This document shows positions 522 through 31,716 of a stretch of 64,000 bases of DNA, piece after piece. A model generated the notes under the pieces. That model searched no databases, was not told the DNA's origin, and saw nothing but the letters and a program-made list of their open reading frames with translations. The stretch covers positions 1-64,000 of the forward strand of contig JAJEEE010000052.1 of assembly GCA_022821145.1 (NCBI GenBank), read 5' to 3'. Both the position numbers and the translations under genes were made by a program. Position 1 is the first letter of the stretch, and every line of letters starts with the position of its first letter. The DNA is from Acidobacteriota bacterium. Lineage in GTDB: Bacteria > Acidobacteriota > Terriglobia > 20CM-2-55-15.

Positions 522-2036
522 ATGACACTGAAACTCCCCCTTCGGCCGCGTCCCCGGACCGCGCGGACCGCCGGCCGGCAACGCGCCGGCATCAAGGTCA
601 AGATGATCCTCCCGGCGCTGACCGAGGCGACGAGCCCCTTCTTCCGGCCCATCAAGTACTCGCTCTTCCCTCCGCTGGGCCTGGCGACGCTGGCCGGCTA
701 CCTGCGCGACGACGACGAGGTCGCCCTCCAGGACGAGCACGTGGAGCGTCTCGATACGGACGACGAGCCCGACCTGGTCGTGATCCAGGTGTACATCACC
801 TCCGCCCGACGGTCCTATGAGCTGGCCGACCACTACCGCCGCAAGGGCGCATGGGTCGCGCTCGGCGGCCTGCACGTGACCTCGCTCCCGGAGGAAGCCG
901 CGCGCCATGCGGACAGCGTCTTCATCGGGCCGGGCGAGGACACTTGGCCCGTGTTTCTCGACGACTTTCGGGCGGGACGCCCCAAACCGCTCTACCGCTC
1001 CACGGTGCGCACCCTGGCCGGTCTTCCACGCATCCGGCGCGACCTGATCCAGCGTTCGCTCTATCTCGTGCCGAACTCGATCGTCGTTTCCCGCGGCTGC
1101 CCGCACGTGTGCGATTTCTGCTACAAGGAGGCCTTCTTCCAGGGCGGCCGCGGTTTCTACACCCAGGTGGTCGAGGACGCGCTGGCCGAGATCGACCGGC
1201 TGCCCGGCCGCCACCTGTACTTTCTCGACGACCACCTGTTCGGAAACGTTCGCTTCGCCTCGGAGCTGTTCGACGCGATGCGGGGCATGGGGCGGCTGTG
1301 GCAAGCCGCCGGCACCGTCGGGTCGGTCCTGCGTCCCGGACTGCTCGAGGCGGCGGTCACGGCCGGCCTGCGCAGCCTGTTCGTCGGCTTCGAGACGCTG
1401 GACCCGCGGAGCCTGAAGGCCCAGCGCAAGTTCCAGAACCTGCGCCGCGACTACGGCGAGGCGGTGCGGCGCCTGCACGACGCGGGCGTGATGGTCAACG
1501 GCAGCTTCGTGTTCGGCATGGACGAGGACGACCCCTCGGTCTTCGAGCGGACCGTCGAGTGGGCCATCGGGCAGGGAATCGAGACCGCGACGTTCCACAT
1601 CATCACGCCCTACCCCGGCACTCGGCTGTTTGACCGCATGGAGGCCGAGGGCCGGCTGCTGCACCGCGACTGGGACCTCTACGACACCCGCCACGTCGTC
1701 TTCCGCACGCGCGGCATGAGCGGGGAGGCGTTGGAGTCCGGCTACCGGCGGGCCTACCGCGACTTCTACCGGTGGGGCTCGATCCTGCGCGGAGCGTCGA
1801 CGAAGAACGATCCGGTGGCCGCCTTGCGCCACGTTGCCTACGCCGCCGGGTGGAAGAAGTTCGAGCCGCTCTGGGACCGGGTCATCCGCACGCGGCAAGT
1901 CTTGCGAATGCGTCCCGCCCTGGAACAGATCCTGCGCGGCTTCGGGCGGCAACCGGAACAGCCTGCAGAACCAACGCCAGAGCCGCAACGCGCACGACGG
2001 TCGATGCCTCATGCGCACGGAGGAGTGTCACGATGA
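522..2036 (+). CDS. B12-binding-domain radical SAM protein
   Basis: 504-residue cytoplasmic radical SAM enzyme. Residues about 28-150 have the layout of an N-terminal cobalamin-binding domain ([13 protein letters not shown] near the start, later [14 protein letters not shown]). The radical SAM core follows with the [4Fe-4S] motif CPHVCDFC (Cys193, Cys197, Cys200; CX3CX2C), then FVGFETLDP and HIITPYPGT, typical of this class. The substrate cannot be read from sequence; relatives methylate or rearrange unactivated carbons, including in hopanoid and other isoprenoid pathways. ATG 522 is chosen because the in-frame extension back to 441 is low-complexity Arg/Ser. The stop overlaps the next start as ATGA, and a cis-prenyltransferase lies two genes on, so a polyprenyl substrate is plausible but inferred. 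Confidence 0.85.
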
Positions 2037-2362
2037 AACGATCGCTCAGTTCTCTCGAAGACCGCCTGGCGCCCGCCGAGGCGATCTTCTTCACCTGGCT
2101 CCTGCGGGTATTCGCCGCCGCGACGCTCGTCGGGTCGGCATGGATCGACGACGCGCCGCCCCTGGAGTTGGGGGCCATGATCATAGCGATCTATGTCGCC
2201 GTCCGGGTGGCCGCCCAGTTCGGCCGCCTGGCCGCCGCCGCGCCTTTCGAGCACCGGCCGTTGCGGGTGATGTTCGCCGCCGGCGCCCTCATTCTGCTCG
2301 GTTTGTCGTTCCTCGTCGTCGCCATCCTCGTCGAGCGCCTGTCCCTCTCGGCGGTCGGCTGA
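2033..2362 (+). CDS. small three-helix membrane protein
   Basis: 109 residues starting at ATG 2033, preceded by GGAGGA about 10 bases upstream and overlapping the radical SAM stop by four bases. Three hydrophobic segments are visible: [38 protein letters not shown] and [20 protein letters not shown]. No family is recognised. Its position between a radical SAM enzyme and a cis-prenyltransferase, with tight coupling on the upstream side, suggests a membrane partner for the same pathway. Confidence 0.75.
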
Positions 2363-2373
2363 GGCGGAACGGG

Positions 2374-3126
2374 ATGGACCGAACGCCGACGGGCCTGCAC
2401 GTGGGCCTGATCATGGACGGCAACGGCCGGTGGGCCGCGGCGCGCGGGCTCCCGCGCACGGAAGGTCACCGCCGGGGCGCCGGCGCCGTGCGGCGCGCCG
2501 TGGAAGCGGCGCCCGGGCTCGGCATAACGACACTGACTCTCTACGCCTTCTCCCGGGACAACTGGCGTCGGCCGGCGGACGAGGTGGCGACGCTGATGGG
2601 GTTGATGGAGTCCTTCCTGGTCCGCGAACGCGCGAACTGCCGCCGGCAGGGCGTCCGGCTCGCGGTGATCGGCCGCCGCGACCGCCTGCCGCCGGGGCTG
2701 ATTCGCGCGATCGAGGAGACGGAGCGCGCCACACGCGACGGCGCGCGGCTCTACCTGAGGTTGGCCGTGGACTACTCGGCGCGCTCGGCGATCCTCGCCG
2801 CGGCCGGTGCGCTGGGCTCGGCCGAACGCTGCGACGAGACAGGCTTCCTGCGGCGGGTCAATCGCGCGTGCCACTCCGATCCGGAAACGCCGCCGGTGGA
2901 CCTCGTGATCCGGACGAGCGGCGAGCAGCGCCTGAGCGACTTCCTGCTGTTCGAGTCGGCCTACGCGGAGCTTGTGTTCATCGACACGCATTGGCCGGAC
3001 TTCGACGGCGAGGATCTGTGCCGGGCCATAGAAGCGTTTCGCCGCCGCGACCGCCGATTCGGAGCGGCGCCGGCGGAGGAGGGCGTCGGGGTGCCGCACC
3101 GTGCCGGAATCGCTTTCATGGACTGA
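2374..3126 (+). CDS. uppS: cis-prenyltransferase (undecaprenyl diphosphate synthase family)
   Basis: 250 residues, the usual length. The family signature MDGNGRWA is at residues 14-21 (Asp15 binds Mg-diphosphate), followed by [20 protein letters not shown] and near the C-terminus [21 protein letters not shown], the conserved IPP-binding and dimer region. It condenses isopentenyl diphosphate units onto an allylic primer to give a Z-polyprenyl diphosphate. The canonical 'NYGGR' loop reads VDYSARSAI here, so this may be a pathway-specific paralogue rather than the housekeeping cell-wall enzyme. It starts 11 bases after the small membrane protein in the same operon. Confidence 0.9.
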
Positions 3127-3451
3127 CGCTATCGCCATGGACACGTCGTCCGGCCCGGATTCAAATTGAAGTGATATCAGGTCAAAAGAAACAGGTTCTT
3201 CGAAATTGCGGGCTGCCGGTCCCCCTCGCCATATCGATGCGACCGATGCCGCCTTCGGCCTGGGAGAGGACTGCGGCATTCCGGACAATGCGTCTCTCCG
3301 AGCTCAATAGCCCGGCCCACACGCGCCCCGGTCAACGCTTGACGCCCGTCCTCGCGAACGGCGGCCCATGACTCGGGGTCGCTCCGCGCTCAGGAGCTTT
3401 CGACTGTGCTCGACACGGTAATGTCGACGATCCCGGCGATCGGCCCACGAC
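3127..3451. other. intergenic region between convergent genes
   Basis: No convincing gene is seen between the cis-prenyltransferase and the minus-strand membrane protein gene. The middle is somewhat more A/T-rich than its surroundings. I found no strong hairpin followed by a T-run, so termination signals for the converging units are not obvious. Confidence 0.4.
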
Positions 3452-3973
3452 TCAGTCCGTCGACGGTGCGGGCGATTCACGGTCTTCGCCGTTTCCGCTG
3501 GCGCTCCCGCGAGTCCGATAGACCACATACATGGCCGTGAGAACTCCGCTGCCGATCAGCGCCAGGGCGATTTTGACAGCCACCGGATTCGACGACAGCC
3601 CCGTATTCTCGATCAGCCAGTGCATGCTAAGGCCCCCGAAAACGGAGAAGACACTGTACTGGCGAAAAGTGGGCCCGGTTCGCTGCACGTCGTGCAGCTG
3701 ACGACCCGTTGCCTGCGCTTCGCGAGCCGCGGCATACGCGTGGTAGGCCATCATCCCCACGAACGCGAAAAGCGAAGGGAGCGCGATCCGGCCGCGATCG
3801 CTCACGTACTCGACGATGCCCTCCGGCTCGAAGATCAGCGCGACGACAAAGAAACCCAGAAACACGGCGGCAACTCCGATAACGTACCTCCAGATCGCGT
3901 AGACGACCGTTTCGGCCGGAGTCATCTTCTCGACCCGCTCCATCAGGACGTTTCTCGCCCGGTCCCACATCAT
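3452..3973 (-). CDS. membrane protein, module 'B' copy 2
   Basis: 173 residues with about four hydrophobic helices (WRYVIGVAAVFLGFFVVAL, IALPSLFAFVGMMAYHAYA, YSVFSVFGGLSMHWLI, IALALIGSGVLTAMYVVY) and an acidic tail. It is a paralogue of the gene at 5096-5620: both start MMWDRAR, continue M-T-x-x-E-T-V-V-Y, share A-R-E-x-Q-A-T-G in the loop after helix 2, and end in an ALIG helix. It follows module 'A' copy 2 in the same operon, repeating the order seen upstream. The family is unknown to me. Confidence 0.7.
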   Translation of the reverse strand: MMWDRARNVLMERVEKMTPAETVVYAIWRYVIGVAAVFLGFFVVALIFEPEGIVEYVSDRGRIALPSLFAFVGMMAYHAYAAAREAQATGRQLHDVQRTGPTFRQYSVFSVFGGLSMHWLIENTGLSSNPVAVKIALALIGSGVLTAMYVVYRTRGSASGNGEDRESPAPSTD

Positions 3974-4044
3974 CGATCTCCGTGAATCTGACCGGCGCCC
4001 GTGTCCACTCCGCGGTTACCGTCCACTCGAAGACATGGGAGGCC

Positions 4045-5620: not shown

Positions 5621-6195
5621 CGATCCCTGTCGATACGATAGGCGCCCGTCTGGGCCGCAGACGTCGATGTCAGCGCGGGCATGTGAGGAACGTCGACGCC
5701 CGATGGCGGCGGATGGATCCCGTTCTCCATGGCCTGTTTCTCGATGCGCCTCCAGGCACGATCGGAGAATCGTGCCTCCATCGTCGTCCAGAAGACGGTG
5801 AACGCGGCCGCGAGGAACACGAGGAATGGCCAAGAGCCGTCGTAGCCGAGTAGCCAGAACACGCCGACGAAACCGAAGACGATGAAACCGGCGCTGCACC
5901 GGAAACCCATCACGGCGCGCTCGGTACGCGTGGGGCGTCTCCGTTCAAGCTGCCAGAAGCGGTGCCGAGACGTTTCCGTGATCGAAACGAAGACACCGAA
6001 CAAGGCCAGATTCACCCACCCCGGTACGTGGAATCCTACCCACACCGGCTCGTCCCAGCCGAAGACGAAGGCGAGGACGAAGGTGATGACGACATGGAAC
6101 GCGGCCCCCATCAGGCCGAAGACGACGGCATGGGCCACGCGTGCGGCGCCGGTTTCCACGTCCCCCTCCATGAACGTGTTGAACCGGTTCGGCAT
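5617..6195 (-). CDS. membrane protein, module 'A' copy 1
   Basis: 192 residues beginning MPNRFNTFMEGDVETG, with about four hydrophobic segments including VVFGLMGAAFHVVITFVLAF and FIVFGFVGVFWLLGY. It is a paralogue of the gene at 4045-4551 and carries about 25 extra C-terminal residues. Its start overlaps the stop of the upstream gene (TAATG) and its stop overlaps the start of module 'B' copy 1 (ATGA), so three genes are translationally linked. Function unknown. Confidence 0.7.
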   Translation of the reverse strand: MPNRFNTFMEGDVETGAARVAHAVVFGLMGAAFHVVITFVLAFVFGWDEPVWVGFHVPGWVNLALFGVFVSITETSRHRFWQLERRRPTRTERAVMGFRCSAGFIVFGFVGVFWLLGYDGSWPFLVFLAAAFTVFWTTMEARFSDRAWRRIEKQAMENGIHPPPSGVDVPHMPALTSTSAAQTGAYRIDRDR

Positions 6196-6500
6196 TATCG
6201 ATCCGGCCGATCCGCGTCCAGCCCGATCACGGTCAAGTCATGCTTTCTCGTCCATGACGCCGGCGGTCTGAAGTGAAAGAGGGCAAAGACGGCAGCCCCG
6301 CCGGTAGCGGAAACGAGAAATCCGGGCCACTCGTCCGCAAGACCGTGCGCGGTCAGGCCGACGGCGTTCGACACAAGGGCCAACGTGAAGAGACCGGCGA
6401 ACAGCCCGGCCATGCGTCCCGCATAGACGAGTGCGCCGTGGAACCACTTCTCGCGACCGTTCATCGTACTGTGGTCGCACTCCTGGATGATGCGAATCAT
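6195..6500 (-). CDS. small membrane protein, first gene of the module operon
   Basis: 101 residues with two hydrophobic segments (MAGLFAGLFTLALVSNAVGL and PGFLVSATGGAAVFALFHF). The start used gives MIRIIQECDHST; an internal Met (MNGREKWFHGALV) is an alternative. It is the first gene of the minus-strand operon that ends at 3452. No family recognised. Confidence 0.6.
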   Translation of the reverse strand: MIRIIQECDHSTMNGREKWFHGALVYAGRMAGLFAGLFTLALVSNAVGLTAHGLADEWPGFLVSATGGAAVFALFHFRPPASWTRKHDLTVIGLDADRPDR

Positions 6501-6804
6501 GACTCACCGCTCGATCCGATGACGCGGCGAGTCCCGTCCGGATCCGTTCCCGGACACCCGCCGCGCCAACGCTTGTCATCGTACTGGCCGACGGCCGTTC
6601 CGGCCAGGATTATCGCCGGCGATGCCGGAGTGTAGCGGAGCCGATTCTACCCCGCCGCGTTGTATTCCCTACGCGTGGCCGTCACGTCGTCGAGAGGCGG
6701 GCGGAGCGGGCGCAAGGCGACATGTGGGGCTGGACCTGATCGGTCGCTCATCGACTGCGACCCGAGCCTCGGGGGTTTCCCCACATGCTGTTAGAATCGC
6801 ATCG
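6501..6804. promoter_or_regulatory. divergent intergenic region
   Basis: About 300 bases separate the membrane-module operon (minus) from the HTH gene (plus), so promoters for both must lie here. On the plus strand TAGAAT at 6792-6797 resembles a -10 box and ends only seven bases before the ATG at 6805, as for a leaderless message; no good -35 box is visible. Confidence 0.35.
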
Positions 6805-7047
6805 ATGAAGTCGTTGGCACAGTGCATGGAAGACGCGGGCATGAGCCTGGAGGCGCTCGTGGCGGCGTCGTCCATGGACGCGCGCGTCGTCCAGGCGATC
6901 GTCGCCGGTCAGTATACGCCCAGTCCGTCGGACCGTCAGCGGCTGGCGGACGCCGTCGGCGTGCCCAGGCACGGGATCGCGTGGGGACACGTGATCGAAG
7001 TGCAGCACCTGCGCGGCAACGGCCCGCAGTTCGGCCGGTCGACCTGA
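6805..7047 (+). CDS. small helix-turn-helix protein (XRE-like)
   Basis: 80 residues from ATG 6805. Residues about 9-55 fit an XRE-type HTH (MSLEALVAASSMDARVVQAIV, then PSDRQRLADAVGVP), followed by a conserved-looking tail IAWGHVIEVQHLRGNGPQFG. I recall similar tails in small HTH proteins of several environmental phyla, but the function is unknown. An in-frame extension to 6622 exists but is Arg/Pro-rich and unlikely to be coding. Its end faces the ATPase gene only 15 bases away. Confidence 0.65.
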   Translation: MKSLAQCMEDAGMSLEALVAASSMDARVVQAIVAGQYTPSPSDRQRLADAVGVPRHGIAWGHVIEVQHLRGNGPQFGRST

Positions 7048-7062
7048 CCCTCGGCCGTTCGC

Positions 7063-8208
7063 TTACGGCAGCGCCAGTTCCTTCGAGAACGTACGGAAGG
7101 GCAGGACGCGCGTGCCGGACCACACGCGGTCGCCCTCGCCGAGATGGACCTGGTAGTAGTCCGTGATCGGCGTGCGCCGCCGGAAATACGCGATCGCCGG
7201 GTTGGGCGCGCGGTCGCCGGTCTTGCACTCCACGGCGAACCGCGGCCGGCCGTCCCGCAACACGACGAAGTCGACTTCGCGGCGGTCCGTGTCCCGCAGG
7301 AATCGCAGCTCCATCCGGTATCCCTCCGTATCCTCCACGTGGTGGCAGTACTTCAGCAGGTGCGAGGCGACCATGTTCTCGAAGCGTTCTCCCGGACCGG
7401 GCGTCTGGGACCAATCCCACAGGTAGAGCTTCTGCTCCTTCTTGACCGCCCGTATTCGCGGGGCGCCGAACGGGGGAATGCGGAAACAGACGTACAGGTT
7501 CTCGAGTATGCCGAGCCACCGCGCGACCGTTTCGTGGGCCACCTGCAAGTCTTCCGACAGGCTTTTCACTGAGAGCGGCGAGCCGACCCGTTCCGGCAGG
7601 GCGTCGACCAGCAGCTCCACCAGCGCCACTTGGCGTACGTTCTCCAGGTCGCGCAGGTCTTCGTGTACGACTCGCGACAGCCGTTCGCGCTGCCAGCGGC
7701 GCCACGTCCGCGTGTTGCCGGCCAACAGCGGCTCGGGAAAACCGCCGAACCGCAAGAGCGTCTCCACGTCGTCGCGTGACGGCCGGGCGGCGAGCTCGCC
7801 CAGCGAGAACGGGTGCAGGCGGTAGGGGTGGTAACGCCCCTGCAGGGAATCCCCGCCTTTCCGGTAGTGATCCAGCCGGGCCGAACCGGTCACCAGGAAG
7901 GCCGTGCGATCGCCTTCGGTGTCGTAGAACCCCTTGACCAGGTTGCGCCACCGCGGGTACTTGTGGATCTCGTCCAGGACGAGCAGGGGCTCGCCGCCGG
8001 GCAGTTCGCCGCGAAGCAGCGTGCGGCGGGCGTGCGGGTCGTCCCAGTTCAGATACCCGGGATGCCGTGCGCCGCCGCCCAGCAGTTGAAGCGCCAGCGT
8101 GGTCTTGCCGACCTGCCTCGGGCCGCCGAGAAGCACCATCTTGTGTCGAAGGTCATCCCGGATCGGTTCGGTCAGGTATCGGACGCGGGTCCTGAAAGTC
8201 GCGGTCAT
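7063..8208 (-). CDS. AAA_14/DUF4143-type ATPase
   Basis: 381 residues. Walker A is GGPRQVGKTT near residue 29 and Walker B is LLVLDEIHK. The sensor region LVTGSARLDHYRKGGDSL is typical of the AAA_14 family. The second half (about residues 190-381) has a winged-helix region (LSVKSLSEDLQVAHETVARWL) and a DUF4143 end with DFVVLRDGRPRFAVECKTGD, a PD-(D/E)XK-like core. Such proteins are common in bacteria and archaea as mobile or selfish-looking accessory ATPases, and their role is not settled. A second, divergent member lies at 10814-11974. Confidence 0.85.
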   Translation of the reverse strand: MTATFRTRVRYLTEPIRDDLRHKMVLLGGPRQVGKTTLALQLLGGGARHPGYLNWDDPHARRTLLRGELPGGEPLLVLDEIHKYPRWRNLVKGFYDTEGDRTAFLVTGSARLDHYRKGGDSLQGRYHPYRLHPFSLGELAARPSRDDVETLLRFGGFPEPLLAGNTRTWRRWQRERLSRVVHEDLRDLENVRQVALVELLVDALPERVGSPLSVKSLSEDLQVAHETVARWLGILENLYVCFRIPPFGAPRIRAVKKEQKLYLWDWSQTPGPGERFENMVASHLLKYCHHVEDTEGYRMELRFLRDTDRREVDFVVLRDGRPRFAVECKTGDRAPNPAIAYFRRRTPITDYYQVHLGEGDRVWSGTRVLPFRTFSKELALP

Positions 8209-8248
8209 GAGGGCGCCGCCCCGGATTGCAAGGCGCGTTAGTGAAATC

Positions 8249-8277
8249 AGGCTAACTCTGAATCACTCACGAGTCAA
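8249..8277 (-). promoter_or_regulatory. candidate sigma-70-type promoter for the AAA_14 ATPase
   Basis: On the minus strand TTGACT (8277-8272) and TAGCCT (8254-8249) are 17 bases apart, about 40 bases upstream of the ATG at 8208. The surroundings are A/T-rich for this genome. This is a motif match only. Confidence 0.4.
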
Positions 8278-8371
8278 ATCAGGTGCAGTCTATTTTACTC
8301 ATGAGACTCAGCGACAGAACGGCCCGTCGTTCCAGTGCCGGGTCACCGGATCGTCGCGTCGGCGGACGGAC

Positions 8372-8800
8372 TTAGCGTTCTTCGGGGTCGCGTCCGTCCC
8401 GGGGGGCGCCCGTTCCCGTCGAGCCGACGAAGAGCCGGCTGCCGTCGGGCAGCGTCATGTCCCGGCCGTTGGCGCGTGGGCCGCCGTCCTTGGCCTGGTA
8501 GCCCTGGACGAGGATCTCGGTCCCGATCGGCAGGGAATCCCGGGTGAAGCCGCGCCGGAACATGGCGTTGGGCGCGCCGGCCTCGATCTCCCAGGTTTCC
8601 GTGGACCCGTCCTCGCGCGTCACCTCGATCGTGATCCAACTGTGCGGGTTGATCCACTCCACCTCGGTCACGGTCCCGCGCAGCTCGATGGGGCGGGACG
8701 CGTCGAACTCGGCGGAGAACGCGTGATGAGCCGCCGCCGCGGGGGCGAGGCCCGCCAACAGCACGGCGACGCCGGCCAACAGGATGCGTTCGTGCGACAT
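8372..8800 (-). CDS. DUF6152-family secreted protein
   Basis: 142 residues from ATG 8800, with GGAGGA upstream. A signal peptide (LLAGVAVLLAGLAPAAAA) is followed by AHHAFSAEFD, G-T-V-T-E-V-E-W and NPHSWITIEV, the pattern of DUF6152: a His-His start and a small beta-rich domain. The family is periplasmic and functionally uncharacterised. It is the last gene of a three-gene minus-strand cluster with two WEGDTLVV-type proteins; the same partnership recurs at 35-39.8 kb. Confidence 0.8.
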   Translation of the reverse strand: MSHERILLAGVAVLLAGLAPAAAAHHAFSAEFDASRPIELRGTVTEVEWINPHSWITIEVTREDGSTETWEIEAGAPNAMFRRGFTRDSLPIGTEILVQGYQAKDGGPRANGRDMTLPDGSRLFVGSTGTGAPRDGRDPEER

Positions 8801-8814
8801 CGTGTCCTCCTCCG

Positions 8815-9846
8815 CTAGCGGTGACGTTCTTCCAGGGCGCGCGACCCCTTCAGGCTGTTCTCCATCATCCGGTAGTTGCCCTCGTGGCAGGCGAACTCGT
8901 ACAGGTGCTCCGGCTCCTGGTAGTTCGGGTCGTCGCCGCGCCAGGGCATGGCGAACGTCCACGGCCGCGTCCAGATCGTGGGGTCTTCCACCGTCACCCG
9001 GTATTCGATCGTGTCTTCGTCCAACCGCGTGAACCGCTCGGTGTAGCGCATGTTGCCCTGGGGGAAATTCAGGGGCGGCCCGGCGCGGCCGGCGTCGAAC
9101 AACTGCCGGTCGCTGAAGTTCGTCCAGTCGACCACGAGCGTGTCGCCTTCCCAATGCCCCCGCGAGTCGCCGTTCCACAACCGGATGCTGTCGTCGATGT
9201 GCGGGCGGCCGTCCAGGGGGATGATGCGCACGTCGTTCATGCTCTCGTAGTGGATGACGACGTATCCCGGCGTCTGAAGGATCTGGACCCCGTGGTTGTA
9301 CGACTGCCAGACGCGCGGCATGGGGCGGGCGACGCAGCGTTCGTAAGCCGGGAAGTCCATCCAGCTCCGGTAGAGCGTCTCGACGAACGGCTCCTCGCCG
9401 ACGCGGCGATCCTCCATCGCGGCCGCCTGCTCTTCCCAGATGATCTGTCCCCGCTCCAGGACCGGCGGCAGCCGTCCGTCCGGCGGATCGACGATCAGCG
9501 ACGTCCGTTCCATCAGCCGCCCCTTCTCGTTCGACGTCCAGAAGCTGTTGTAGGTGCCGACGGTCCCCTCGCGGACGGGGCCGCCTTCGCGGGTGAAGCG
9601 TTCCGCGGCCGCGGCTTCCAACTCGGCCAGCTCCTCGGCGGTGTAGGTTTCCCGGTCGCCCAGCTCCTCGGGCCGCTGGAGCGGCGTGTTGGTCGAGAAC
9701 GTGTACACGCCCTGCAGGTCCGGGTCGCCCCAGGGCGTGTAGCCCTGCGTCCATTCCTCGGCCGCGTCCTGCGCTGCCGCCGGCCCGGCCGCCAGCGCGA
9801 GAGCGGCGGCGCACGCCGTCAGTTTCGGCACGGATGGTCGGCTCAT
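8815..9846 (-). CDS. secreted protein of the WEGDTLVV-motif family
   Basis: 343 residues from ATG 9846 with a signal peptide (CAAALALAAGPAAAQ). The mature part starts with a G-D-P-D-L-Q-G-V-Y-T segment and contains a proximal ERCVARPMPRV segment. Its hallmark is WNGDSRGHWEGDTLVVD, followed by R-Y-T-E-R-F and WTRPWTF. I do not know a characterised member; homologues are common in environmental bacteria beside DUF6152 genes. The start overlaps the stop of the upstream gene by four bases, so the two related proteins are translationally coupled. Confidence 0.7.
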   Translation of the reverse strand: MSRPSVPKLTACAAALALAAGPAAAQDAAEEWTQGYTPWGDPDLQGVYTFSTNTPLQRPEELGDRETYTAEELAELEAAAAERFTREGGPVREGTVGTYNSFWTSNEKGRLMERTSLIVDPPDGRLPPVLERGQIIWEEQAAAMEDRRVGEEPFVETLYRSWMDFPAYERCVARPMPRVWQSYNHGVQILQTPGYVVIHYESMNDVRIIPLDGRPHIDDSIRLWNGDSRGHWEGDTLVVDWTNFSDRQLFDAGRAGPPLNFPQGNMRYTERFTRLDEDTIEYRVTVEDPTIWTRPWTFAMPWRGDDPNYQEPEHLYEFACHEGNYRMMENSLKGSRALEERHR

Positions 9847-19360: not shown

Positions 19361-20914
19361 TTATCCCGGCATCTGACTTTCCGGCACCCACCACCCGTGC
19401 ACCTGTCCCGGTGCGCGCATGGGCAGCATGACCGTGGCCACCGGACCCTCGTCCAGGTGCTCGGCGTCCAGGATCACCAGGTCGGAGCGGCGGTTCTGGT
19501 CGTTGCGCGTCGCCAGGCCCATCAGGTAGCCCGAGCCTTCCGGCGCGTCGGCGCTCCGGGGGGCGAAGCAGCACTCGGCCAGCGACGTCGCCTCTTCCGA
19601 CCGGTAGAGCGTGTCCTGCCGGGTCTGGTGGTCGAAGCGCGCGTAGCAGGCGCGCGCCTCCCGCCGGCTCTCGGCGTACGGGTCCGGGCAGGCCAGGAAA
19701 CCGTAGCGGTAGGGCGCGGTGTTGTAGCGGTCGTCCTGGCGCGGCAGCGCGCCCTGGTGGGGATACATCTGCTCGATCGAGTAGCTTTGGGGGGTCGACG
19801 GGCCGAGATCCACCGACAGCCGCGTGATGTGGCTGGCGCCGGCGACGGGGTTCCAGGCCGCGCCGTCGCGCATGGGCATGAACGGGAACGGGTTCGACAT
19901 CGACATCTCGACGTCGACATAGATCCGGTCGTCGTCGCTGAAGGCGCCCATCACGTGCGTGGCGCTGCGCGTGGGGCCCTCGATCCAGCGGACGTCGGAG
20001 CCGTCGCCGTCGCGGCGGACGAACCCGAAATACGTCGGCTGCGTCGAATCCCAGGACCAGTGGATCCCGCCGTTGGCCATCTGCTCCGCGTCGAACGCCA
20101 TCGGGATGACGTAGAAGATGATGTAGCGCCGGGTGACGGCGAAGTCGTGGAGCATGCCGACGTACGGCACGGTGATCGTCGCGTCCCAGACGCGTTCGCC
20201 GTCGGGCGTGAACTCGAACATCGACACGACGTCGCTGCCGTGCCCGGTGGCCTCGTAGCCGAACGCCACCATGTTGCCGGTCTCCGAATCCAGCTTCGGG
20301 TGCGCCGTGAAGGTCCGGCTCGGGAGCAAATCGTCGAACGTGTAGTTCGGCACGAGCGTCTCCAGCGTCAGCAGGTCCATCGCCGAGGGCGGGCTGTCCT
20401 CCTTCAGCGCCAGGAGCATGTTCTTGAAATTGATGATGTGCGTGTTGGCCGTGCTGCGGCTCAGGCCCGCCACCGACGGGTCGTCCATCGACGGGTTGCG
20501 GTACATCGGGAACAGGATGCGGCCCGCGGCGTCCTGCGCCAGCCAGCGGTCGTTGCGGACGAACCGGCTCTTGTAGTCGACGCGCCCGTCCTTGATGCGG
20601 AACATGCTGACGTGGCCCTCGCCGTCGAAGGGGATGTTGCCGTCGACCAGCGGGAACTGGGGGTCCGGGCCGACCCGGTAGAAGGCGCCGTTCAGGTCGG
20701 ACGGGATCGCGCCCCGGACCTCGCAGTGGCGGACGTCGGCTTCCAGGCGGTAGAGTCCCGGCCCGGTGGACGCCGACGTGCCCGGCGGGCCCTGCTGGGC
20801 GGCGGCGGCCTCGGCCGGGCCGGTGAGCCAGTGGGCGGCCCCGATTCCGGCCGCGGCGCCCAGCGTGCCGCCCATGAACGTCCGGCGGTTCAGCGTGTCG
20901 CGTTTCTCTTTCAT
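19361..20914 (-). CDS. carotenoid-oxygenase-family (RPE65/CCD) enzyme
   Basis: 517 residues with a Tat-type signal (NRRTFMGGTLGAAAGIGAAH). It matches the carotenoid cleavage dioxygenase fold: GAIPSDLNGAFYRVGPDPQF near the start, and the four iron-ligand histidines appear in FTAHPKLD, MLHDFAVT, ATHVMGAF and QVHGWWVP. These non-haem Fe(II) enzymes split C=C bonds of carotenoids, stilbenes or lignin-like phenylpropenes. A Tat-exported member suggests an extracytoplasmic substrate. Two triple-SnoaL lipoproteins flank it on the same strand, 33 bases upstream and about 830 downstream. Confidence 0.85.
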   Translation of the reverse strand: MKEKRDTLNRRTFMGGTLGAAAGIGAAHWLTGPAEAAAAQQGPPGTSASTGPGLYRLEADVRHCEVRGAIPSDLNGAFYRVGPDPQFPLVDGNIPFDGEGHVSMFRIKDGRVDYKSRFVRNDRWLAQDAAGRILFPMYRNPSMDDPSVAGLSRSTANTHIINFKNMLLALKEDSPPSAMDLLTLETLVPNYTFDDLLPSRTFTAHPKLDSETGNMVAFGYEATGHGSDVVSMFEFTPDGERVWDATITVPYVGMLHDFAVTRRYIIFYVIPMAFDAEQMANGGIHWSWDSTQPTYFGFVRRDGDGSDVRWIEGPTRSATHVMGAFSDDDRIYVDVEMSMSNPFPFMPMRDGAAWNPVAGASHITRLSVDLGPSTPQSYSIEQMYPHQGALPRQDDRYNTAPYRYGFLACPDPYAESRREARACYARFDHQTRQDTLYRSEEATSLAECCFAPRSADAPEGSGYLMGLATRNDQNRRSDLVILDAEHLDEGPVATVMLPMRAPGQVHGWWVPESQMPG

Positions 20915-26131: not shown

Positions 26132-26764
26132 TCAACAGGATTTGGTCCGACGCCGTAGGTTTCGCGTAGCCCGGCGGCTGCGCGGCGAGCCGAGTACGCC
26201 TCGCCCATGACCGTCGAGCCACTTAATCAGGTCGGTCAGCTCGGCGTCGTCAAGGTAGGTCGTCTTGATGTAACGTCGGGCCGAGGGATTCGGATAATCA
26301 AGTTTCCGGAAACGCTCAGGCAACTCGCAGACCGTGTCACCAAAATACCAGAAGCGATCCGCAACGAGTGCATATCGCCCATCGAGGTCGCGCTGCACTT
26401 GTTTTGGGCTCGAATGGAGCGAGTCGGGCGTGTCCTTGCGTCGCCGCAGGCCGGAAGATCGGTGAGGTTCGTAAATGTTGTCCGGTGTCCGGGACCGGTC
26501 GGGCTTCTTCTGATCGAATTCTCCGCACTCGTAATACTTGCGCATTGTGAGTTTTCGGCCGACGCGCATAACGTACGTTACGAGAAACTGTCTCGACAAG
26601 CGATCCATCTCCCGCTTCGGCCAGAGGCCAACGATCCAGTTCCCTACCACTGCGTTCCGTCGAATTTGCGGTTTGCACAAACACAACGTGCAGACGCCGC
26701 CGTCCACGTTCGGAGCCACACCTCCGTCTGTTGCCACGACGTAACTGAAGAACTTGTGCTTCAC
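26132..26764 (-). CDS. Nmad2 (nucleotide modification associated domain 2) protein
   Basis: 210 residues. The first 75 match Nmad2: FFSYVVATDGGVAPNVDGGV, CTLCLCKPQIRRNAVVGNWI, then LVTYVMRVGRKLTM. The conserved pattern is a Y-x-V-x-x-D...aPN strand, CTL-x-x-CKP-x-IR and a G-D/N-W-I-V strand. Nmad domains were defined computationally by their association with DNA base hypermodification systems in phages and bacteria; their biochemistry is unknown, and sensing or trimming of modified nucleotides has been proposed. The gene starts six bases after the Nmad3 stop, so they form an operon. The Arg-rich end may be a degenerate tail. Confidence 0.75.
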   Translation of the reverse strand: MKHKFFSYVVATDGGVAPNVDGGVCTLCLCKPQIRRNAVVGNWIVGLWPKREMDRLSRQFLVTYVMRVGRKLTMRKYYECGEFDQKKPDRSRTPDNIYEPHRSSGLRRRKDTPDSLHSSPKQVQRDLDGRYALVADRFWYFGDTVCELPERFRKLDYPNPSARRYIKTTYLDDAELTDLIKWLDGHGRGVLGSPRSRRATRNLRRRTKSC

Positions 26765-26770
26765 GTCAAC

Positions 26771-27625
26771 TCACATGAACAGTTCGCGCAACCAGACGCT
26801 GGCTTCCGGGACACCGTCCGCGTCGAACACGAACTCCTGCCCCTTGCCAACCGTGTCGACATATACCCACGGTCCCCGGCGCCGCCAGCGGGTCTTGTCG
26901 GTATGGTAGCTGAGCGTCGGAAGACTGCCTGAACTCCAGATCCATGAAGGCAACCGCCATCGCGAGCAGCGCTCTCCGGGAGCCGTCAACGTGAGGTTTT
27001 GGCCCGAATGATCGAATACGCCCCCGCCGCCACGCGCAGTCTCGGTCCCGTCGATGGTGAGTGTTCGGGTTGCTATGTAGATCGTGTTGTTGACCGGCCA
27101 TCGCTGCCCATTCAGATGCGGATGTGCAGATAGCCATGGATGGACTGCGAGGGCGGGTTCCGGATCTCGACCGACGCGCAATGCCTCGGACACCTGGAGC
27201 CAACCGAATAGTTTGTGCACCACCGGCGCGTTCCTCACGTACCGCCACATAGTGCCCAGTGGTTCCACGGCGCGGAACCTGCCAAAGAACAAGAACAGGT
27301 CGCCGGGACCGACACCCTGGTTTTCCAGGTGGCCTTGCGCGGCGGCGAACTGCCCAAATGCCGGCCGCCAGCCTGTCGGGCGTGGGAGCGCGTCCTCCCG
27401 CAGATCCGGATCCAGATGGCACATGTAATGTTCCGGTACGCGGCCCTTGGTCAGGCACTCCACGAGCGGCCCCAGTGAGGTGTTCCTCCACTGAACGTCT
27501 TCGAACCTCGTCGGAGAAAGGCGGTCTGGAATCGGCAGCGGCAAGCTGGCGCCGTCTGGGAAAACGGGATTCGGCACACGGCCATGCTGGGAGTCGAACG
27601 CCTTTCGGCTGAACACAATCTTCAC
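26771..27625 (-). CDS. Nmad3 (nucleotide modification associated domain 3) protein
   Basis: 284 residues from GTG 27625. The N-terminus VKIVFSRKAFDSQHGRVPNP and FPDGASLPLPIPD match the Nmad3 pattern K-I-I-F-S-R-K-G-F-D-S-x-x-G-G-x-P-S-P-I-x-P-D-G. GDLFLFFGRFRAVE, VHKLFGWLQVSEAL and HPHLNGQRWPVNNTIYIA are also family-like, and the C-terminus WVYVDTVGKGQEFVFDA looks complete. No methyltransferase, oxygenase or glycosyltransferase is adjacent. The first about 120 bases of the gene are duplicated at 31.4-31.5 kb. Lower GC than its surroundings fits horizontal transfer. Confidence 0.8.
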   Translation of the reverse strand: MKIVFSRKAFDSQHGRVPNPVFPDGASLPLPIPDRLSPTRFEDVQWRNTSLGPLVECLTKGRVPEHYMCHLDPDLREDALPRPTGWRPAFGQFAAAQGHLENQGVGPGDLFLFFGRFRAVEPLGTMWRYVRNAPVVHKLFGWLQVSEALRVGRDPEPALAVHPWLSAHPHLNGQRWPVNNTIYIATRTLTIDGTETARGGGGVFDHSGQNLTLTAPGERCSRWRLPSWIWSSGSLPTLSYHTDKTRWRRRGPWVYVDTVGKGQEFVFDADGVPEASVWLRELFM

Positions 27626-27833
27626 GGCGTCGCCTCGATCGAATATGTCCCGTTCTTGGAGAATCGAGATGGCGAGCGAACCGATCGCACGTCAGTCACC
27701 GGTGCGTGTCGAGAAAATCACGCCGAACGAATGAAGAATGCCTGTCGGTTCCTTTCCCAAAGCGTTTTCCGCATGTGGACTCGGTTGGGCAACCGAAGCG
27801 GTCACAGCTATTCTACCGCATCCGATCGATTCC
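27504..27833. repeat. 330-bp direct repeat, copy 1
   Basis: Holds the 5' end of the Nmad3 gene, the 43-base divergent gap and the start of a small plus-strand gene. It recurs at 31386-31716 in the same orientation (offset 3882-3883), roughly 80-85% identical by eye with a few single-base indels. Confidence 0.85.
27669..27830 (+). pseudogene. frameshifted copy of the small membrane protein at 31552
   Basis: Starts MASEPIARQSPV like its twin (MATEPIARQSPV). One missing base in the AAAA run near 27719 brings a TGA at codon 22. The twin's sense then continues in another frame (RMKNACRFLSQSVFRMW), and an extra base near 27780 shifts it again into GWATEAVTAIL. Two indels relative to the intact twin make this a decayed copy. 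Confidence 0.75.
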
Positions 27834-28214: not shown

Positions 28215-28499
28215 ATGCCTGGCAGCGACCACGAGCGCGTGCAGCCCATGCTGAATCCGCCCCACCTGGGGGAGTTGATCCGCGAGAGCATGGAGGAGAC
28301 GGGCTGGACGGTCGGCGAGACCGCGACCCGGCTCTGTTGCGAGCGGGGGACGCTGTCGCGCGTCCTGAACGGCAAGTCCGGAGTATCCGCGAACATGGCC
28401 TTGGCGCTGGAGCGCATCGGGTGGGGGACTGCCGACCACTGGATGCGTATGCAGGCGAGCTACGAGCTGGCGCAGGCGCGCCGGAAGCAGACCGCCTGA
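28215..28499 (+). CDS. higA: HigA-type antitoxin
   Basis: 94 residues. Family marks: NPPHLGELIRESMEETGWTV, then the HTH VGETATRLCCERGTLSRVLNG, SGVSANMALALERIGWGTAD and HWMRMQASYELAQAR at the end. HigA neutralises HigB and represses the operon. The pair lies inside the segment bracketed by the 330-bp repeats. Confidence 0.92.
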   Translation: MPGSDHERVQPMLNPPHLGELIRESMEETGWTVGETATRLCCERGTLSRVLNGKSGVSANMALALERIGWGTADHWMRMQASYELAQARRKQTA

Positions 28500-28988: not shown

Positions 28989-29309
28989 TTACGCGCTGAC
29001 CGTTCGTACCTGTCCCGGCCTGAGGTCCGACAACGCCCGCGAAATGGGTTCCACGAGCGGGTTGAGGTGTTCCATGCGGTTCGAAGGCGCTCGAACGACC
29101 AGCACACCTAGACCCAGGTCGCTCAGGTCCTGCTGGTGCGGAAGTCCGCGGTCCATCGTCAACAATGCGTCGAATTCCCCTCGCGCGCGCCGGAGGAACT
29201 CCCCGTTCGTCATTCCCGAGCAGCCGCGGGCCTGGACCGTGAAGGCGTCGTGCTCTTTCAACGCGTCGGCGAGAGCCCGGGGCAAGTTCTCGTCAAGCAG
29301 AACGCGCAC
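28989..29309 (-). CDS. DUF5615 PIN-like toxin
   Basis: 106 residues. MRVLLDENLPRALADALKEH is the classic DUF5615 opening (Asp6, Glu7), followed by TNGEFLRRARGEFDALLTMDRG and LGVLVVRAPSN. These PIN-like proteins are encoded with DUF433 antitoxins, and that partner is directly upstream with a 17-base overlap. Presumed RNase toxin. Confidence 0.88.
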   Translation of the reverse strand: MRVLLDENLPRALADALKEHDAFTVQARGCSGMTNGEFLRRARGEFDALLTMDRGLPHQQDLSDLGLGVLVVRAPSNRMEHLNPLVEPISRALSDLRPGQVRTVSA

Positions 29310-29727
29310 GAGTCAGGACGGAATCCCGGGCACTGGCGAGAGCCGCAAGGGCCTGCTCCCGGGTCACCGACGGGAATTGGTCGAGGAACTCTTCGAGCGA
29401 CTCGCCGCCCCCGAGGTAATCGAACAGCGTCCTTGCCGGCACCCGAGTACCGCGAAATACCGGCGTTCCACCGGAAACCTCCGGGTCGCTGTGAACGATC
29501 GACTGCGAGACAGTCGGTACGCCGGCCAGCTCCCCGGCGGCGGCGAACGCGAGGCAGGCGCGAATGTCCTCGCGTTCCAGGTCGGGGAAGTCCCGCAGGA
29601 TGTCGTCCTCGGACATGCCGGACGCCAGGTGTTCGAGCACGTCGGAGACCGTCATGCGCAAGCCTCGGATGCAGGGCTTGCCGCCCCGTTTTCCGGGCTC
29701 GATCGTGATTCGGTCCAAGTGCGCCAT
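29293..29727 (-). CDS. antitoxin with two tandem DUF433 domains
   Basis: 144 residues, about twice the usual length of 75-80. Domain 1: DRITIEPGKRGGKPCIRGLR, MTVSDVLEHLASGMSEDDIL, FPDLEREDIRACLAFAA. Domain 2: SIVHSDPEVSGGTPVFRGTR, VPARTLFDYLGGGESLEEFL, FPSVTREQALAAL. Both carry the G-G-x-P-x-x-R-G-x-R turn before a DNA-binding helix. Domain 1 is the subtype usually paired with DUF5615, domain 2 another DUF433 subtype. A fusion of two antitoxins in one chain is unusual. Confidence 0.85.
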   Translation of the reverse strand: MAHLDRITIEPGKRGGKPCIRGLRMTVSDVLEHLASGMSEDDILRDFPDLEREDIRACLAFAAAGELAGVPTVSQSIVHSDPEVSGGTPVFRGTRVPARTLFDYLGGGESLEEFLDQFPSVTREQALAALASARDSVLTRARSA

Positions 29728-30612: not shown

Positions 30613-30902
30613 GGAGCCACACGGAAACAGCGGAAGTTGTCGACGCGGCACCACTCGTTAAGGCCAACTGGATGCACAACGACGGCGAACACGACCGGGC
30701 GGGCTTTTTCGACACCGTGTCCGAGGTCGTGCCTGTCCAACCTGAGGGGCAGCAATGACTTCAAGATAACCGTTTTCGAGTATACCGTGCCGCGGAAGCC
30801 GTGCATAAACAGGACGGTCGCGACCCTCCGGGCGTCAGTCGCCCAGTCGAGGCCGGCCGGTGGTCGATCGCCTCGATCGGGGTCCGGGTTATACTCCCCC
30901 TA
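30613..30902. other. intergenic region
   Basis: About 290 bases with no supported gene. Near the right end TATACT (30890-30895) looks like a -10 box and ends seven bases before the ATG at 30903; no clear -35 box. Confidence 0.35.
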
Positions 30903-31310
30903 ATGAAAACGCCGTCGCAAATCGTCGGGAACATGGGTCTTTACTATGCGTGTTTCAAGCTGTCCGAGCTCGGTTGGAACGTAATGCCCACTTCGCGCAA
31001 TGCCCGCGGAATCGACATCATCTGCTTCAGCATGGATGGGACGCGTATGCTTACCATCCAAGTAAAGAGCCTGAGCAAGCGAAATCCGGTGCCGTTAGGC
31101 AAAGATCTCGGCACGATCATGGGTGACTTTTGGGTCATCGTGAACTCGCTAGACACAGGTAAGCCGCTGGCGTACATCTTACTGCCCCACGAGGTGCGGG
31201 CTATGGCGCAGCGCACCGAGAAGGACGCTAAAGTTTCGTACTGGCTCGTACCCAAGAAGTATGCCGTTGATGAGTTCGAGGAAAAGTGGCAGCGAATTGG
31301 TCACGCTTGA
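30903..31310 (+). CDS. PD-(D/E)XK-like nuclease-fold protein
   Basis: 135 residues from ATG 30903. SQIVGNMGLYYACFKLSELG, then NARGIDIICFS and TIQVKSLSKR fit the D...(E/Q)xK core of the restriction-endonuclease or Holliday-junction-resolvase fold: Asp in GIDII, Gln-Val-Lys in the next strand. The protein is single-domain. Members of this fold occur as small nucleases in defence or toxin contexts, but many are inactive binders. No partner methylase is visible. It lies alone between the decayed FitB and the second 330-bp repeat. Confidence 0.6.
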   Translation: MKTPSQIVGNMGLYYACFKLSELGWNVMPTSRNARGIDIICFSMDGTRMLTIQVKSLSKRNPVPLGKDLGTIMGDFWVIVNSLDTGKPLAYILLPHEVRAMAQRTEKDAKVSYWLVPKKYAVDEFEEKWQRIGHA

Positions 31311-31331: not shown

Positions 31332-31508
31332 TCAGAATGGCCGGCCGGCCGCGGCTTCCCCGCGGAATGTTTGTTCCGATTCCTTAACCTCGTCAGAGAT
31401 AGGCGGGGCCGGAATCAGTAGCGGAAAGCTGGCGGCGTCCGGGAAAATGGGATTTGGCACACGGCCGTGTTGGTAGTCGAACGCCTTTCGGCTGAACACG
31501 ATGTTCAC
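31332..31508 (-). pseudogene. truncated copy of the Nmad3 gene (5' end only)
   Basis: 58 codons from a GTG in the same place as in the parent: VNIVFSRKAFDYQHGRVPNP, IFPDAASFPLLIP, then unrelated sequence to a stop. It is the part of Nmad3 carried by the second 330-bp repeat. Reading-frame constraint seems relaxed, but the first 30 codons remain clean. Confidence 0.8.
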
Positions 31509-31716
31509 GGCGTCGCCTCGATCGAATATGACGAGTTCTTGGAGAATCGAGATGGCGACCGAACCGATCGCACGTCAGTCACCGGTGCCAGCCGAGAAAA
31601 ACCACTTCGAACGAATGAAAAACGCCTCTCGGTCCCTTTCCGAAAACGTTTTCCGCATGTGGATCGGTTGGGCAACCGGAGCGATCACAGCTATTCTACT
31701 GTATCTGATCGCTTCT
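31386..31716. repeat. 330-bp direct repeat, copy 2
   Basis: Second copy of 27504-27833. It holds the truncated Nmad3 start, the divergent gap and the start of the small membrane protein gene. Homology fades at the TGATCGCTTC near 31715. Confidence 0.85.

Follow-up and report, generated by a model that had tools for sequence, protein, structure and literature searches.

A candidate Nmad3-Nmad2 module for recognition of modified bases in an uncultured Acidobacteriota bacterium

The gene pair and its surroundings

The window, which is the whole stretch of DNA that was analysed, is 64,000 nt long and belongs to contig JAJEEE010000052.1 (GCA_022821145.1) of an uncultured Acidobacteriota bacterium. 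Two neighbouring genes on its minus strand encode members of the Nmad2 (PF18753) and Nmad3 (PF18754) families. These are nucleotide modification associated domains, named for their links to base hypermodification, and to our knowledge both families are known only by association. The features of the locus are as follows:

26771-27625, minus strand: Nmad3 gene, first of the pair, GTG start, 284 aa (PF18754, E 2.8e-71)
26132-26764, minus strand: Nmad2 gene, second of the pair, GTG start, 210 aa (PF18753, E 4.9e-39)
27626-27832, minus strand: leader upstream of Nmad3, with direct repeats D1-D3 (86-89% identity), duplicated within 31406-31715
31406-31715, minus strand: remnant, a truncated second copy of the leader and of the first ~33 Nmad3 codons
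27706-28194, plus strand: HigB-like toxin gene (PF05015, E 7e-14), context outside the pair
28215-28499, plus strand: HTH antitoxin-like gene (HTH_31, E 2.4e-9), context outside the pair

The two genes run in the same direction and are separated by six bases between the Nmad3 stop codon and the Nmad2 GTG, an arrangement that the original prediction had described correctly. It had assigned the proteins by their N-terminal signatures. The assignments are right, but the Pfam matches are full-length and not N-terminal alone, because they cover the whole Nmad3 profile (positions 1-247 of 247; 240.5 bits against a curated cut-off of 27) and positions 2-195 of 200 of the Nmad2 profile (134.4 bits against 26.1). 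A second Nmad3, of a short form, was found by profile search in the same genome (contig C11:27360-27953, locus L013/L023) and has no detectable Nmad2 neighbour.

The lower-coordinate neighbour of the pair is a PQQ-dehydrogenase-like gene (Pfam), and on the sister contig this place is taken by one of similar length. The higher-coordinate side is occupied by the HigB-like toxin and HTH genes, a weak DDE_3 transposase remnant, and DUF5615/DUF433 and FitA-type antitoxin genes. The DUF5615 (PIN-like) gene overlaps the DUF433 gene (28989-29727), and the two are likely to be a toxin-antitoxin pair. HigBA and DUF433/DUF5615 were considered as members of the system and rejected, because Nmad2 is the sole recurrent partner among related loci. 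Further along, a 169-aa protein (30801-31310) shows a G-x-D...QVK pattern that recalls PD-(D/E)XK nucleases; it matches neither a Pfam nor a PADLOC family.

The 5' end of the Nmad3 gene together with about 200 bp of its leader (27523-27832) is 86-89% identical to the remnant at 31406-31715, which lies 3.9 kb away, matches positions 2-41 of the Nmad3 profile and has 79% identity over Nmad3 residues 2-34. The transposase remnant and the toxin-antitoxin-type genes sit between the two copies. This truncated copy is the only other one in the whole genome. The original view of a recombination-scarred island is borne out by it and by the transposase remnant, and the chromosomal location of the pair is supported as well. 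In a sister species, the contig (L026) breaks off within this repeat.

No DNA methylase, thymidylate synthase, TET/JBP enzyme or glycosyltransferase was recognised in the window with Pfam, two of the scans being tallies at strict E-values. The one gene that could be called an 'oxygenase', at 19361-20914, is of the RPE65 (carotenoid-oxygenase-like) type and is irrelevant to DNA. The pair had been described as standing in the window without a modification enzyme, and this description holds. Furthermore, a search of the whole genome (99.3% complete) for thymidylate synthase PF00303, which is present in 9 of 14 control genomes, gave no homologue. The corresponding search for TET/JBP matched no control genome and carries no weight either way. 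None of the enzymes that define a hypermodification cassette (thymidylate-synthase-type, TET/JBP or glycosyltransferase) was recognised beside the pair.

Distribution and conservation

A scan of 84,980 genomes gave at least 530 relatives of Nmad3, and the neighbours were examined at the best 80 loci, which span about ten phyla. Acidobacteriota, Nitrospirota, Pseudomonadota, Actinomycetota, Myxococcota, Planctomycetota, Spirochaetota and Thermodesulfobacteriota are among them. Nmad2 is directly adjacent in 24 of these best 80 of at least 530 loci, a frequency that is not an estimate for the whole family because the best 80 are the loci most like the query. The order is Nmad2-Nmad3 in 18 of the 24 and Nmad3-Nmad2 in 6, and the gene ends often overlap. 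The 56 loci of the best 80 that have no detectable adjacent Nmad2 include short contigs, and a very divergent Nmad2 would be missed in them; in one further locus Nmad2 lies 6 kb from Nmad3. The gene calls in the related loci are mechanical, and the Nmad2 of locus L107 was detected by Pfam only. The pair recurs across phyla with no modification genes beside it, in support of the original reading.

An even draw of 396 genomes from the phylum of the window contains Nmad3 in 8 genomes and Nmad2 in 9. The two occur together in three genomes and are adjacent in all three, the expected number of co-occurrences being 0.18. Two of these three genomes carry the short-form Nmad3, so the partnership spans the Nmad3 family. 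Clustering of the neighbouring ORFs of the related Nmad3 loci revealed no recurrent partner besides Nmad2 and no conserved third gene. Large ORF clusters opposite the Nmad3 strand were rejected as shadow ORFs, and other shared neighbours reflect conserved local gene order in Halomonas and its relatives. That two independently mobile genes share islands by chance and have no joint function appears very improbable. In its favour, both families occur more frequently apart than as neighbours, and there were many gains or losses of the pairing; however, Nmad2 is the only recurrent neighbour, the genes overlap, both orders exist and the co-occurrence is far above expectation (3 against 0.18).

In the Nmad3 tree the pairing was gained or lost at least eight times, and the window gene has its closest kin from other genera, among the matches listed, in Gemmatimonadota, Bryobacterales and Pseudomonadota. 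Because the pairing changes so often and the closest kin belong in part to other phyla, the pair looks, from these sequence comparisons, like a horizontally moving module. Nmad3 without Nmad2 occupies the same chromosomal position in 11 genomes of the Halomonas group (L041, L046, L047, L050, L055, L056, L059, L060, L064, L079 and L089), whereas its distribution elsewhere is patchy. The Nmad2 ORFs of two Actinomycetota (L043:4651-5742 and L063:9075-10004) have a zinc ribbon, CPDCG...CDQCG, at the N-terminus, a fusion that suggests contact with nucleic acid.

The pair is also present in a congeneric sister species (L026/G422), with protein identities of 98% for Nmad3 and 94% for Nmad2. Both genes look maintained, because dN/dS between the two species is 0.39 for Nmad3 and 0.38 for Nmad2, values that are based on few changes. 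The residues S6, R7, K8, D11, P31-I32-P33, H70, D72, P73, G91, Q92 and D109 of Nmad3 are invariant in an alignment of 57 rows, and so are H168, H170, Q263 and E264. The polar ones (S6 R7 K8 D11, H70-x-D72-P73, H168-x-H170 and Q263-E264) would fit a catalytic or binding site. In Nmad2, C30-K31-P32, R35, G41, D95, Y98, D126 and G142 are invariant in an alignment of 25 rows. The usual G-D of the strand GDWIVG (residue 42) is G-N in the window and G-D in the sister species.

Predicted folds and partners of Nmad2

The AlphaFold2 models of the two proteins are confident for Nmad3 (pLDDT 94.3) and usable for Nmad2 (pLDDT 82). The best PDB match of the Nmad2 model found by Foldseek is an archaeal McrB N-terminal domain (E 0.015, probability 0.80). 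It is accompanied by MJECL36, m5C-bound McrB, YTH with m6A RNA, THYN1 with 5mC DNA, and EVE, ASCH and Lon N-terminal domains. PUA-like proteins account for nearly all of the 30 top matches, and many of these are readers of modified bases. Of the 20 top PDB matches of the Nmad3 model roughly half are PUA-like, all with E above 0.3, including ATP sulfurylase, the EVE protein PH1033 and the ASCH protein EOLA1; the first match in a library of viral structures is an ASCH protein (E 0.06). The E-values of all fold matches of both models are above 0.01. Because these individually non-significant matches agree, a PUA-like core is likely in Nmad2 and plausible in Nmad3, as judged from the models.

Comparison of profiles placed 'W..A..HL..GD' of Nmad3 and EVE in register, and one of 150 column shuffles scored as well. 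The comparison of Nmad2 with EVE was not significant, its reversed control scoring higher, and neither was that of Nmad2 with Nmad3. The class contains too few ASCH proteins to allow a profile comparison with that family. Sequence searches of the PDB, single and profile, found no relatives. The original prediction was that the pair recognises or removes modified DNA. Recognition is plausible in view of the reader-like predicted fold of Nmad2, but removal is not supported: Pfam recognised no nuclease, glycosylase or other known effector in either protein, and the operon contains no gene for a nuclease.

RNA is a common ligand of PUA-like folds, and the pair might act on the cell's own RNA or tRNA, in maturation, quality control or stress, and not on phages. 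The YTH-RNA and ASCH structures among the Nmad2 matches, the zinc-ribbon fusions in the two Actinomycetota and the fixed position of solitary Nmad3 in the 11 Halomonas-group genomes are consistent with such a role. A very patchy distribution (8-9 of 396 genomes) and kinship across phyla are unlike a housekeeping RNA factor, however, and the TIR, MazG_C and UDG partners of Nmad2 also argue against it, so that we hold this explanation unlikely.

These partners emerged from a survey of 15 Nmad2 genomes taken from two even draws (Acidobacteriota and Pseudomonadota). Nmad3 is adjacent in six, TIR and/or MazG_C in three (G290, G392 and G732), a helicase and a DUF4268 gene precede Nmad2 in one (G258), and the neighbours are unrelated or unknown in five. 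Similar arrangements are found on viral or prophage contigs. The list gives the arrangements from both sources and that of L160:

G290: MazG_C-TIR-Nmad2
G392: Nmad2-MazG_C, then a helicase with a PLD domain
G732: TIR-Nmad2
L140 (viral/prophage contig), 1619-4007: Nmad2-MazG_C-UDG-like
L145 (viral/prophage contig): Nmad2-UDG-like
L146 (viral/prophage contig), 6584-9476: TIR-Nmad2-MazG_C-UDG-like
L147 (viral/prophage contig), 5727-8603: MazG_C-UDG-like-unknown-Nmad2
L160, 654-2270: compact operon of the TIR/Nmad2/MazG_C/UDG-like type

The operons of L140, L146, L147 and L160 are compact, and some are on prophage-like contigs. The simplest reading of the partner pattern is that Nmad2 would be a sensor combined with different killers. 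The pair had been proposed to be a two-component system. It is indeed a recurrent adjacent unit, but 56 of the best 80 of at least 530 Nmad3 loci and 9 of the 15 Nmad2 genomes are unpaired, and because of this each protein can apparently act alone or with other partners.

Nmad2 or Nmad3 adjoins a DNA polymerase A gene in L141 (a viral contig) and L038, and a member of the Nmad families is near a ParB-methylase fusion in L108 (also viral). Because of these loci, the link to phage DNA metabolism that was first described still holds for some family members. They also agree, as does the origin of the family names, with the pair being a remnant or accessory of a hypermodification pathway that is encoded elsewhere or has been lost. 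With no thymidylate synthase homologue in the genome, no modification genes recognised in the window, recurrence of the pair without such genes and two genes that look maintained, there is little to recommend this explanation.

Another alternative is that the target of the pair, to be sensed or eliminated, is not modified DNA but free modified nucleotides such as the altered dNTPs made by phages. MazG/MazG_C, a predicted nucleotide pyrophosphohydrolase/kinase, and UDG-like genes adjoin Nmad2, and the polar invariants of Nmad3 could form an active site. However, neither window protein resembles a nucleotide hydrolase, and the window pair has no MazG_C or UDG beside it, which makes this alternative improbable.

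No family of PADLOC 2.0 matches Nmad3 or Nmad2 at E up to 1, PHROGs have no match for the pair, and no homologues of the window Nmad3 or of two viral-contig queries were found in annotated phages. PADLOC matches around the pair loci include AbiEii, MADS, Cas1 and RecD-like proteins, counted without a matched control. In the window the pair lies beside toxin-antitoxin genes, but the neighbours are not consistently defensive across loci, where ABC ATPase, beta-lactamase, oxidoreductase and similar genes also occur. At other loci the company of Nmad2 includes TIR, MazG_C, UDG-like and helicase genes, which would make defence the best reading. In the DefensePredictor study (PMC13092281) NMAD, MazG-C and UDG are among the domains of predicted or validated anti-phage systems, the NMAD possibly being of a different subtype, and domains related to the TIR-Nmad2-MazG_C-UDG operons appear in its Fig. 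6F.

Proposed function and relation to known systems

We propose, with a probability of about 0.4, that the pair is a mobile, self-contained module that recognises modified bases and hinders phages with altered bases. Nmad2, whose PUA-like fold (similar to EVE, YTH and the McrB N-terminus) is supported by its model, would bind within its pocket an altered base from foreign DNA or RNA; we infer this ligand. Nmad3, whose core is probably PUA-like and whose polar residues include a conserved set (HxDP, HxH, SRKxxD and QE), would either do the damage or complete the recognition surface. Together they would act in the manner of type IV restriction in cells that do not themselves produce such bases.

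A more far-reaching version, which we regard as doubtful, makes Nmad2 an exchangeable reader that is plugged into TIR, MazG_C/UDG, helicases or Nmad3 as effectors. Nmad3 would then be a new effector, and the pair a minimal, uncatalogued type IV-like defence in about ten phyla. The TIR-Nmad2-MazG_C-UDG-like operons have a homologous Nmad2 in common with the pair, but in the window Nmad3 replaces TIR, MazG_C and UDG as the partner. None of the three is found beside the window Nmad2, the neighbours of which are Nmad3 and the PQQ-dehydrogenase-like gene.

Among known systems, McrBC and other type IV restriction enzymes use EVE-, SRA- or DCD-type readers (Bell et al. 2020, PMC7641849, where Nmad domains go unmentioned), and it is the McrB N-terminal reader to which the Nmad2 model is closest. 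Unlike these systems, the Nmad3-Nmad2 pair has no GTPase and no recognised nuclease, and the nuclease domain that type IV restriction has in the protein or operon was not found. The pair shares with the Brig1 DNA glycosylase defence (PMC11078745) the concept of an attack on hypermodified phage bases in the absence of a matching modification system, but neither window protein matches a glycosylase family. Both are full-length members of the Nmad families, from whose hypermodification setting the pair differs in having no modification enzyme.

The TIR/MazG_C/UDG operons with their homologous Nmad2 provide an independent handle on what Nmad2 recognises. If the pair does recognise altered bases, its two genes, 1.5 kb in all, would be a very compact and widespread means of countering phages with disguised DNA, and two domain families so far known by association would acquire a function.
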